A stretch of 40,464 nt of DNA from positions 1-40,464 of the forward strand of contig JACMQI010000023.1 in NCBI GenBank assembly GCA_014377045.1. Direction: 5' to 3'. Numbering within the stretch: the first letter of the stretch is position 1; each line of letters starts with the position of its first letter. The translations under genes and the position numbers were made by a program. The notes under the pieces are model-generated. The model made no database searches. It saw only the letters and a program-made list of their open reading frames with translations, and was not told the origin of the DNA. Shown here piece by piece: positions 12,040-22,544 of the stretch. Source of the stretch: a candidate division SR1 bacterium. GTDB lineage: Bacteria; Patescibacteriota; JACMRA01.

Positions 12040-12113
12040 TGGCAGGGATAGTAGGAATCGGACCTACACCAGAGGTTTTGGAGACCCATGTACTACCACT
12101 ATACTATATCCCT
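12040..12113 (-). tRNA. tRNA-Trp (anticodon CCA)
   Basis: The acceptor stem AGGGATA/TATCCCT pairs perfectly; the anticodon loop is CTCCAAA, giving CCA. The 3' CCA is encoded. The A1-U72 pair with discriminator G73 is the bacterial tRNA-Trp identity. The T-loop reads TCCGATT, with C at position 55 where U (pseudouridine) is nearly universal. It follows murG by 26 bases on the same strand and may share its transcript. Confidence 0.93.
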
Positions 12114-17625: not shown

Positions 17626-18627
17626 ATGCCCGTTAACTTTTTTAAAAATTTTAATTTTAAAATCCGTATAAGTAAAATACGATTAATGAGTATATATTTT
17701 TTTATATTTTTTTTGATATCGTCTCTCCTACTATTTTTTCCTATAAAAGAAGTATTTGAGGGTAAATCTAAATTGGAGCAGCAATTCGGTATATCTATTC
17801 CTGAAAATATTCCTTTTTTAAGCAACATTTTAGGTAATACAATAAATATCAGATATTATGCTGTTTGTATTCTTATAGGGGTACTTTCTGGTTATATACT
17901 CACATTAAAGTTGTCAAAAGTATATAAAATTGCAGGTACAGTCATTGATAGACTTTTGCTTGGAATTACAGTTTTTGGCTTAATAGGAGCTCGTTTATTC
18001 TATGTAATATTCAATTTAAAAATCTTTATTTTAGAGCCTATTAGTATACTTTTTGTATGGTTAGGCGGATTAGCTATATTTGGTGCAATATTAGGGTCTG
18101 CACTTTATCTATATTTATATTGTAATCGTTTCAAATTTAATTTTTATGAGTTTTTAGATTTTTTAACTCCAGGATTACTACTTGGTCAGATTTTTGGGAG
18201 GTTTGGAAATTTTTTCAATTATGAAAGTTATGGCGGGCCAACAAGTGCATATTGGAAAATGTATGTACCGCAGACTGCAAAAATATCAGAAAATGTAAAT
18301 CAAGAATATTTTCATCCAACTTTCTTATACGAAGTAATACCAAATATATTTGTATTTCTTTTCATTTTATGGTTTTATGAAAAATTGACATTAAGAAGGT
18401 CTGGTTTGGTATTTGGACTATACTGTATTTGTTATGGTTCAATACGTTTCTGTACAGAATTTTTTAGAATTGATGCTTTAAGATTTGATTTACCAACTCG
18501 TATTACTTTTTCGGTTTTAGATTTTCAAACAGTTTATGTAAGTCAGCTTTGTGCTTCTATAATGTGTATCGTAGGTATCATACTCGTTCAAAAACGAAAA
18601 AATTGGAATACAAGTGTAACACTATAA
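17626..18627 (+). CDS. lgt: Prolipoprotein diacylglyceryl transferase
   Basis: An integral membrane enzyme that transfers diacylglycerol from phosphatidylglycerol to the lipobox Cys. The 333-residue protein has about seven hydrophobic segments and the family motifs NIRYYAVCILIG, GARLFYVIFN, LGQIFGRFGNFFNYESYG (the signature with the essential Arg), HPTFLYE and YGSIRFCTEFFR. The block that normally reads GGxxxHG is GGLAIFG, so the His often considered catalytic is Phe. The N-terminus is about 50 residues longer than usual, with an extra hydrophobic segment near 20-40. Paired divergently with lspA. Confidence 0.92.
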   Translation: MPVNFFKNFNFKIRISKIRLMSIYFFIFFLISSLLLFFPIKEVFEGKSKLEQQFGISIPENIPFLSNILGNTINIRYYAVCILIGVLSGYILTLKLSKVYKIAGTVIDRLLLGITVFGLIGARLFYVIFNLKIFILEPISILFVWLGGLAIFGAILGSALYLYLYCNRFKFNFYEFLDFLTPGLLLGQIFGRFGNFFNYESYGGPTSAYWKMYVPQTAKISENVNQEYFHPTFLYEVIPNIFVFLFILWFYEKLTLRRSGLVFGLYCICYGSIRFCTEFFRIDALRFDLPTRITFSVLDFQTVYVSQLCASIMCIVGIILVQKRKNWNTSVTL

Positions 18628-20040: not shown

Positions 20041-20625
20041 TTACCCTACAATCACTGAAATTGGCTGGATCAATTGGTTATCTATTTTGAGACCAATACT
20101 GACAACTTGTTTTACTTTAGGCTCTTCTTGTGAAAAATCAGAGTTTAAGATTTCCATGAATGCTGGATTGAAAATATCTCCAGGATTAGCTGTGATGATT
20201 TCTATATTATTATTTTTAAGATCTAAAACTAATTTATTAAAACTACTTCTAAGTGTTTCTATAAATACATTTATTACTTGATCTTCAGTTTTTGGAGTAT
20301 AAGAAAACGATATATTTAGAGTGTTCAAAAAGGGTAAAATATTTTGAATGGTAGTTTTTTTTGTAATTTTTTTAGTTTGTAGCTGATCAATTTCAGTTTG
20401 TTTCTGAAAATTTTGTAAATCAGCGCTAATGCGAAGCGCTTTATTTTTCCAATCATCTATTTCTAATGATTGGCTATTTATTTGAGATTTTAGATGCGCA
20501 ATTTCTTGCTGTAGTTTTAGTTCAGATATTTTATCTGTTTCAACCGCAGAAGTAGTATTTTTAATTAATTTTTCTTCTATATCTTGATTTATGTTTTGTT
20601 TTTTAGCGTTTTTTTTATCAGCCAT
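20041..20625 (-). CDS. grpE: Nucleotide exchange factor GrpE
   Basis: GrpE releases ADP from DnaK. The 194-residue protein has a charged N-terminus, a long coiled-coil (about 35-90) and a C-terminal beta domain. Family landmarks are WKNKALRISADLQNFQKQTE, ILPFLNTLNISF and PGDIFNPAFMEIL, the last matching GxxFDPxxHEAV; the usual His is Met. dnaK and dnaJ are not adjacent. It starts only 28 bases after the 3' end of tRNA-Gly on the same strand and has no obvious promoter of its own, so it may be expressed from the tRNA transcript. Confidence 0.87.
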   Translation of the reverse strand: MADKKNAKKQNINQDIEEKLIKNTTSAVETDKISELKLQQEIAHLKSQINSQSLEIDDWKNKALRISADLQNFQKQTEIDQLQTKKITKKTTIQNILPFLNTLNISFSYTPKTEDQVINVFIETLRSSFNKLVLDLKNNNIEIITANPGDIFNPAFMEILNSDFSQEEPKVKQVVSIGLKIDNQLIQPISVIVG

Positions 20626-20653: not shown

Positions 20654-20728
20654 TGGAGCGGGATAGGGGAATCGGACCCCTCTAGTCAGTTTGGAAAACT
20701 GAAGTAATAACCACTATACCAATCCCGC
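20654..20728 (-). tRNA. tRNA-Gly (anticodon TCC)
   Basis: Acceptor stem GCGGGAT/ATCCCGC, discriminator U, encoded CCA. The anticodon stem TCAGT/ACTGA holds loop TTTCCAA, giving UCC. The T-loop is TCCGATT, with C55 in place of U55, as in the tRNA-Trp of this window. A TATAAT box lies 3 bases before the mature 5' end, so little or no leader is expected. Confidence 0.95.
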
Positions 20729-20970: not shown

Positions 20971-21048
20971 TGGTCCGGAGTCCTGGATTCGAACCAGGGA
21001 TTTGACAGATTTACAGTCTGTTGCCATTGTCCACTCGGCCAACTCCGG
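20971..21048 (-). tRNA. tRNA-Tyr (anticodon GTA), archaeal-type features
   Basis: Acceptor stem CCGGAGT/ACTCCGG, A73, encoded CCA. The anticodon stem ACAGA/TCTGT holds loop CTGTAAA (GUA). The T-arm CCTGG-TTCGAAT-CCAGG is normal. The variable region is only about 6 bases, not the long class II arm of most bacterial tRNA-Tyr, and the first pair is C1-G72 rather than G1-C72. Both are archaeal/eukaryotic tRNA-Tyr traits. Confidence 0.95.
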
Positions 21049-21185: not shown

Positions 21186-22544
21186 ATGAATTCACTTTAT
21201 CGAGCACTATATTTTAGAACTTTTGTACTTTTTTTCCTTATTATACTACCTTTTTTGATATTATTTACGCTTGGATATGATATAAGTCTTAATAAATCTG
21301 GGCTTTCTCAAAGCTTGGTTATTTCAATAGAAACCCTTCCACGAGATTCAAAAGTAATAGAAAATAATAAAACAATCGGCAATACTCCTGCAGAGGTAAG
21401 AGGTGAAAATAACGTTCCTATTACTCTAAACGTAACTCAAAATAACTACTTTCCAGAAAAGTTTATTTTTTTTTCAGCATCTAATACAGTAGCCAATATT
21501 TCAAATTTAGCTTTATTACCTCAAACTCCTATAATATTATCTAAAAATCCTACAAGTCAAACATTAGTAACTATATTAAACGATAGTGTAGTTTTGGTTA
21601 AAGAAGATAACAAATTTTATATTAAAAATTATACATTTGGAGGAATTGAAAATAACCAAATCCCAATTAACAATTCTGAAAATGTGAATCTCTTAAATAA
21701 TTATTTTGTTGATCTTGGTGGTGCATACTATTTTTATGATTCCCAAGTTTTATTAATATCAAAAGATGAAAAATGGATTTTTAAGGATTTAAAAAAACTT
21801 CCTTTAAAAGTAGTTAAAATAGTTAAAAAAAATACCTCATTTTTAATTCAAACAGATAATAGTCAATTGTGGTCTTACGACTCTGAAACAAATTTACTAA
21901 AATTTATTGAGTCAGGTATTTTTGGAATTAGTAAGAATATAAATTCTGACTTTATTTGGATTTTAAAGGGTTCGGAGGTCTATAGAATAGATAGTTCAAA
22001 TGATTTAAATTTTCAGTTTACAGTAAATCGCCAGTATTATAATTTTGATATTATAAAAAAATTAGATAATTCTCTTCCTTCCTTTGACGTTAAAAGTGTT
22101 TTTCAAGGAATTGTTTTAAAGTATAATACTGATATTATCTATATACCCGATTTTGATACGAAACAATCAGTACTAATCACAAATAATGCAGAAAGTTTTG
22201 AAGCGTTTGGGTCATCAGTTTTCTGGTTAAGCGATAATGGTAGTCTTTTTTCTAACAATTTAGAACTAAAGAGTGAAGTTATAATTGACAAAATACCGCT
22301 TAAAAGTGAATCGATAGAAAAAGTTAAAATATCATATTATATTCCCTGGAAACGTTTATTTGTATACTCTGATGATAAAGTAAACACCGTTTGGTTTGAT
22401 AAAAGTGTATTAAACTCATCTATTTTAAAATACTTTTCATATTCTTTTTCTGGAGGTGATTGTTTAGTAGGTATTACTGAAAAAAATCAATTTTGTATCG
22501 AAGGAAATAAACTAGTTTCTTATCGTAATACTAAAATTTGGTAG
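21186..22544 (+). CDS. Membrane-anchored protein with PEGA-like domain
   Basis: A 452-residue exported protein. An N-terminal anchor (about 9-30) precedes a PEGA-like surface domain (about 40-110) with the typical layout of a short strand, then IGNTPAEV, then a second strand ending FPEKFIFF. The rest, about 340 residues, is beta-rich with repeated aromatic/Asp-containing strands (KNYTFGG, YDSETNLLKFI, WLSDNGSLFS) and could be a beta-propeller. Two Cys lie near the C-terminus. Function unknown. It is probably transcribed alone; the next gene has its own promoter. Confidence 0.7.
   Translation: MNSLYRALYFRTFVLFFLIILPFLILFTLGYDISLNKSGLSQSLVISIETLPRDSKVIENNKTIGNTPAEVRGENNVPITLNVTQNNYFPEKFIFFSASNTVANISNLALLPQTPIILSKNPTSQTLVTILNDSVVLVKEDNKFYIKNYTFGGIENNQIPINNSENVNLLNNYFVDLGGAYYFYDSQVLLISKDEKWIFKDLKKLPLKVVKIVKKNTSFLIQTDNSQLWSYDSETNLLKFIESGIFGISKNINSDFIWILKGSEVYRIDSSNDLNFQFTVNRQYYNFDIIKKLDNSLPSFDVKSVFQGIVLKYNTDIIYIPDFDTKQSVLITNNAESFEAFGSSVFWLSDNGSLFSNNLELKSEVIIDKIPLKSESIEKVKISYYIPWKRLFVYSDDKVNTVWFDKSVLNSSILKYFSYSFSGGDCLVGITEKNQFCIEGNKLVSYRNTKIW

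Follow-up and report, generated by a model that had tools for sequence, protein, structure and literature searches.

A textbook distinction between bacteria and archaea is the 1-72 base pair of tRNA-Tyr, which also underlies a widely used orthogonal pair for genetic code expansion. Together with A73, C1-G72 is a determinant of the archaeal and eukaryal systems, and a long variable region is needed only in bacterial ones (PMC9976931, PMC6310243). The closest described systems are those of Mukai, Reynolds, Crnkovic and Soll (2017), who reported C1-G72 tRNA-Tyr and an archaeal-type tyrosyl-tRNA synthetase (TyrRS) in several CPR groups, many of these tRNAs with a V-arm and at least one, from one Roizmanbacterium, without it (PMC5370408). 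A bacterial origin of the CPR tRNA-Tyr was inferred there from the V-arm-bearing forms, and repeated transfer from archaea, DPANN in particular, was proposed (PMC5370408). No later paper extending this survey was found in the open-access literature, subscription journals being outside the search. The Tyr systems of human mitochondria and of the Plasmodium apicoplast also depart from the bacterial identity rules, at pair 1-72 or in the variable region (PMC9976931, PMC6310243), as in the genome studied here, but in both of them the TyrRS is still of bacterial type and has an S4-like domain, whereas in our genome the enzyme appears to have been replaced.

A sequence-only reading of the window (the whole analysed stretch of 40,464 nucleotides) had proposed a tRNA-Tyr of archaeal identity, with C1-G72 and a variable region of about 6 bases, and had pointed to the 2017 report as a precedent, which indeed exists (PMC5370408). 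ARAGORN, minimum-energy folding and reading of the sequence all led to the same picture of this gene, a tRNA-Tyr(GUA) of class I shape with an encoded CCA at 20971..21048 on the minus strand. Folding of its RNA, CCGGAGUUGGCCGAGUGGACAAUGGCAACAGACUGUAAAUCUGUCAAAUCCCUGGUUCGAAUCCAGGACUCCGGACCA, gives a complete cloverleaf made up of an acceptor stem of 7 bp, a D stem of 3 bp with an 11-base loop, an anticodon stem of 5 bp and a T stem of 5 bp. C1 lies at 21048, G72 at 20975, the discriminator base A73 at 20974 and the anticodon GUA at 21012..21014, while the variable region CAAAUC (20999..21004) has 6 bases, against about 15 in the bacterial long arm of three relatives (see below). Neither G1-C72 nor a long variable arm, the marks of bacterial class II tRNA-Tyr, was present in the fold. 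The Rfam tRNA model gave 59.1 bits, and the E-value of 1e-12 for the genome excludes a chance match. In C1-G72, A73, G34 U35 A36 and the class I variable region the tRNA resembles that of an archaeal or eukaryal pair such as that of Methanocaldococcus jannaschii, as the S4-less enzyme described below resembles the partner enzyme; it differs in its D arm, which is class II-like (stem of 3 bp, loop of 11 bases), and in a body that is bacterial by descent.

The source genome, of 1.04 Mb in 42 contigs and 86% complete, was searched for tyrS and for a second tRNA-Tyr using Rfam, Pfam and pattern searches. Only two PF00579 proteins were detected by Pfam, one TrpRS and one TyrRS. The latter has 394 aa and is encoded on contig 33 (L002:1432-2616, minus strand). 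It passed the NCBIfam model for archaeal-type TyrRS, NF006330, with 308.9 bits (cut-off 220), a threshold that among the control genomes was passed only in the four archaea, and it stayed below the cut-off of the bacterial tyrS model TIGR00234 (55.8 against 113.8). Its best solved relative was 2cyc (E 9e-87). A domain scan found PF00579 as the sole match and no S4 domain, and the protein ends 10 residues past the NF006330 match, leaving an archaeal-type catalytic core and no C-terminal S4. The residues aligned to R174, H283 and D286 of the M. jannaschii enzyme, which contact C1-G72 and the anticodon in the 1J1U complex, are conserved; the M. jannaschii sequence used for the alignment fits in its length and landmark residues. 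The archaeal-type TyrRS that had been predicted from the tRNA is thus encoded in the genome.

That reading had also suggested that only the Tyr system is switched, and the Trp system bears this out: tRNA-Trp(CCA) at 12040..12113 on the minus strand (ARAGORN) carries A1-U72 and G73, a bacterial identity, and the TrpRS is bacterial (TIGR00233, 278.8 bits, cut-off 176.75). In the 86% complete genome no other TyrRS was found, and the 36 tRNAs detected by the whole-genome search included no second tRNA-Tyr; a further copy of either could lie in the absent part.

The family comprises six genomes, G000 (the source genome) and its relatives G001 to G005. All five relatives encode an archaeal TyrRS, with 48-64% identity, the copy of G001 being split over three frames, probably through assembly errors. 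The TyrRS phylogeny, a further check proposed with the sequence-only reading, placed the five intact family copies in a single clade with support 100, apart from the sampled archaea. The ORF adjoining the TyrRS gene of G000 was also found beside TyrRS in G004 and G001. Admixture of DPANN sequence is a known problem of CPR bins (PMC5370408), and the TyrRS contig might be archaeal contamination of the bin; a clade of their own for the enzymes of five family members, the conserved neighbouring ORF and several tRNA genes of the G000 set on the same contig 33 make this extremely improbable. The pair might also be a second, specialised Tyr system, with the main bacterial one in the 14% that the assembly lacks, and the genome G275 described below indeed shows that both systems are able to coexist. 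A bacterial TyrRS or a G1-C72 tRNA-Tyr was detected in none of the six family genomes by any of the searches made, however, and we consider a hidden main system highly unlikely.

The tRNA-Tyr genes of the family were compared to trace the origin of the gene in the window. G001, G002 and G004 have a C1-G72 tRNA-Tyr that retains the bacterial long arm, and G000 and G003 have variable regions of six bases; in G005 no tRNA-Tyr was found and it was counted as unknown. The 5' half of the G000 gene is identical to that of the long-armed G001 and G004 at 43/44 and 42/44 positions, respectively, compared to 26-32/44 for three bacterial-type G1-C72 tRNAs of the phylum and 23/44 for the M. jannaschii tRNA-Tyr. 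In the window, the gene is followed on the minus strand by tRNA-Gly(UCC) (20654..20728, ARAGORN) and an ORF of 194 aa that is GrpE-like by eye (20041..20625), and an ORF of 452 aa runs divergently from it on the plus strand (21186..22544). By tblastn, homologues of the 452-aa and GrpE-like ORFs flank the tRNA-Tyr of G004, and in G001 homologues of the ORFs at 17626 and 18765 lie on one side of the gene and that of the GrpE-like ORF on the other. These shared flanking ORFs indicate that the locus is orthologous in the three genomes, and the nearly identical long-arm tRNAs of three relatives, two of them at this locus, identify the tRNA-Tyr as the resident bacterial gene. The archaeal identity claimed for it therefore holds for the recognition elements and not for the ancestry, since the long-arm relatives, the locus and the 5' half make the body bacterial by descent. 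Import of the tRNA gene from archaea along with the TyrRS could account for the archaeal recognition elements and the lack of a long arm, and a class I D arm seen in tRNA-Tyr of other families (f119 and f125, see below) could reflect such an import. For G000 it is very unlikely, as nearly the same tRNA carries a bacterial long arm in the three relatives and as the D arm and anticodon arm of the family match bacterial class II tRNA-Tyr.

With long- and short-arm forms at one locus, the loss of the arm can be placed after the identity switch; judged from the sequences of the family, C1-G72 preceded arm loss within it. G000 clusters with G001 and G004 in the rpoB tree (100/99), and G003 pairs with G005 in the TyrRS tree (100/99). 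Parsimony gave two changes. Under a constraint that unites G000 and G003, p-AU was 0.00015 for TyrRS, a strong rejection, and 0.042 for rpoB, a marginal one, and because of these two tests the arm was probably lost twice. The T stem CCUGG/CCAGG common to G000 and G003 would also be explained if the tRNA gene had been exchanged. Conversion by another tRNA gene was rejected as a source of the short arm, the TCCCTGGTTCGAA stretch being in no other tRNA of G000. In this family the stretches read (L247, L248, L250, L251) contain no long ORF of the size of rpoC after rpoB, unlike in G008 and G037, where an ORF of 1236-1239 aa adjoins it.

A sample of 380 genomes of the phylum was surveyed, with archaeal TyrRS scored by the NF006330 cut-off. 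Some of these genomes have a TyrRS at zero distance from Daviesbacteria and Andersenbacteria records in the tree, which identifies the phylum as CPR/Patescibacteria. The cut-off was passed in 38/380 genomes, or 39 with the broken G001 copy. The G72 A73 tRNA-Tyr pattern matched 41 genomes, from which G363 and G134 were removed because their arms do not pair and the matches were judged to be chance, leaving 39. A G72 tRNA-Tyr was present in 37 of the 39 genomes with archaeal TyrRS compared to 2 of the 341 others; in G350 the patterns used found no tRNA-Tyr, and it was counted as unknown. The C72 pattern matched 282 genomes, and among the 39 archaeal-TyrRS genomes only G275. Fisher's test on these counts gave 1.6e-46, a descriptive value only, since the genomes are related, a few of the C72 matches are chance and every match was taken as a tRNA. 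Variable regions were short in 21 and long in 16 of the 37 G72 tRNAs; all 21 short-arm forms seen co-occur with archaeal TyrRS, and no short-arm tRNA was seen among the C72 matches listed. In the TyrRS tree the CPR sequences split among several separate clades, in agreement with the repeated-transfer view (PMC5370408).

Two kinds of exception were observed. The first are G006 (L267, L132) and G105 (L268, L361) of family f2, with a long-arm C1-G72 tRNA-Tyr and, besides TrpRS, a bacterial TyrRS only, whose C-terminus is S4-like by eye; two other f2 genomes encode archaeal TyrRS. These mixed pairs reflect either a change of the tRNA first or a return to the bacterial enzyme. C1-G72 alone is therefore no proof of an archaeal TyrRS, and the link between such a tRNA and this enzyme type is not absolute. 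The second is the single-contig G275 with two complete Tyr systems (L359:186-271, L360:199-284, L071, L259). One consists of an archaeal TyrRS and, at a distance of about 1.6 kb, a C1-G72 tRNA, the other of a bacterial TyrRS and a G1-C72 tRNA at another place in the genome, which makes G275 a possible intermediate of the takeover.

Related arrangements were noted in other genomes. In family f10 (L080, L091, L087, L082, L085, L086), the archaeal TyrRS gene and a short-arm tRNA-Tyr are usually no more than about 1.6 kb apart, as though the two had moved or been kept together. The tRNA-Tyr of f119 and f125 (L152, L166) combine a class I D arm (GGTAGCTCA...) with a short variable region, in which they differ from forms with a bacterial body, and perhaps represent a second route, by archaeal import or recruitment of another tRNA. 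Two Omnitrophota-labelled contigs carry a long-arm C1-G72 tRNA-Tyr (L291:5775-5859, L316:5830-5914) with an archaeal-type TyrRS just downstream, from about 6001 onward; the neighbours in L316, ORFs resembling peptide deformylase and formyltransferase, seem bacterial by eye. This occurrence is outside CPR and absent from the 2017 report. Archaeal-type TyrRS was also seen in MAG contigs labelled Chloroflexi (L292, L295, L325) and Dormiibacterota, also spelt Dormibacterota (L299, L349), clustering with the G275 enzyme, and in L299 an ORF resembling a bacterial TrpRS lies close by.

From the gene pair, the lack of a detectable bacterial TyrRS, the shared bacterial tRNA body and the conserved locus, all of them features of the sequences themselves, the gene in the window is very probably a working tRNA-Tyr that is charged by the archaeal-type TyrRS and that arose when the resident bacterial tRNA was remade alongside an exchange of the enzyme and then lost its arm. 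The bacterial TyrRS of the family ancestor would have been replaced by an archaeal-type TyrRS, which would recognise C1-G72, A73 and the GUA anticodon, and the resident tRNA-Tyr would have changed to C1-G72. Lacking the S4-like C-terminal domain, this enzyme would leave the variable arm unread, and with no remaining enzyme reading it the long arm would be free to go, as probably happened in the lineages of G000 and G003. Charging of the G000 tRNA by the G000 TyrRS is predicted from the two genes, the arm loss was presumably neutral, and either the enzyme or the tRNA may have changed first. A wider reading would be that after the gain of an archaeal TyrRS the long arm decays repeatedly, here twice, barring a return to the bacterial enzyme, with G275, G006 and G105 as intermediates or reversals and with a takeover that reached beyond CPR; this is tentative, and we give it slightly less than an even chance.

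The type of switch is already known from 2017, and a CPR bacterium, an archaeal/eukaryal-type TyrRS and a C1-G72 tRNA-Tyr are common to both studies. In contrast to those systems, the family studied here has enzyme and tRNA together, with long and short arms at one locus; Trp is unswitched in G000, and the 380-genome survey gives counts and exceptions. Added are thus, for one family, the succession of events and a placed locus, and further the survey counts, two kinds of exception and non-CPR cases. A family with both arm forms at one locus and an archaeal-type enzyme makes the order of steps in the replacement of a tRNA identity readable and testable.
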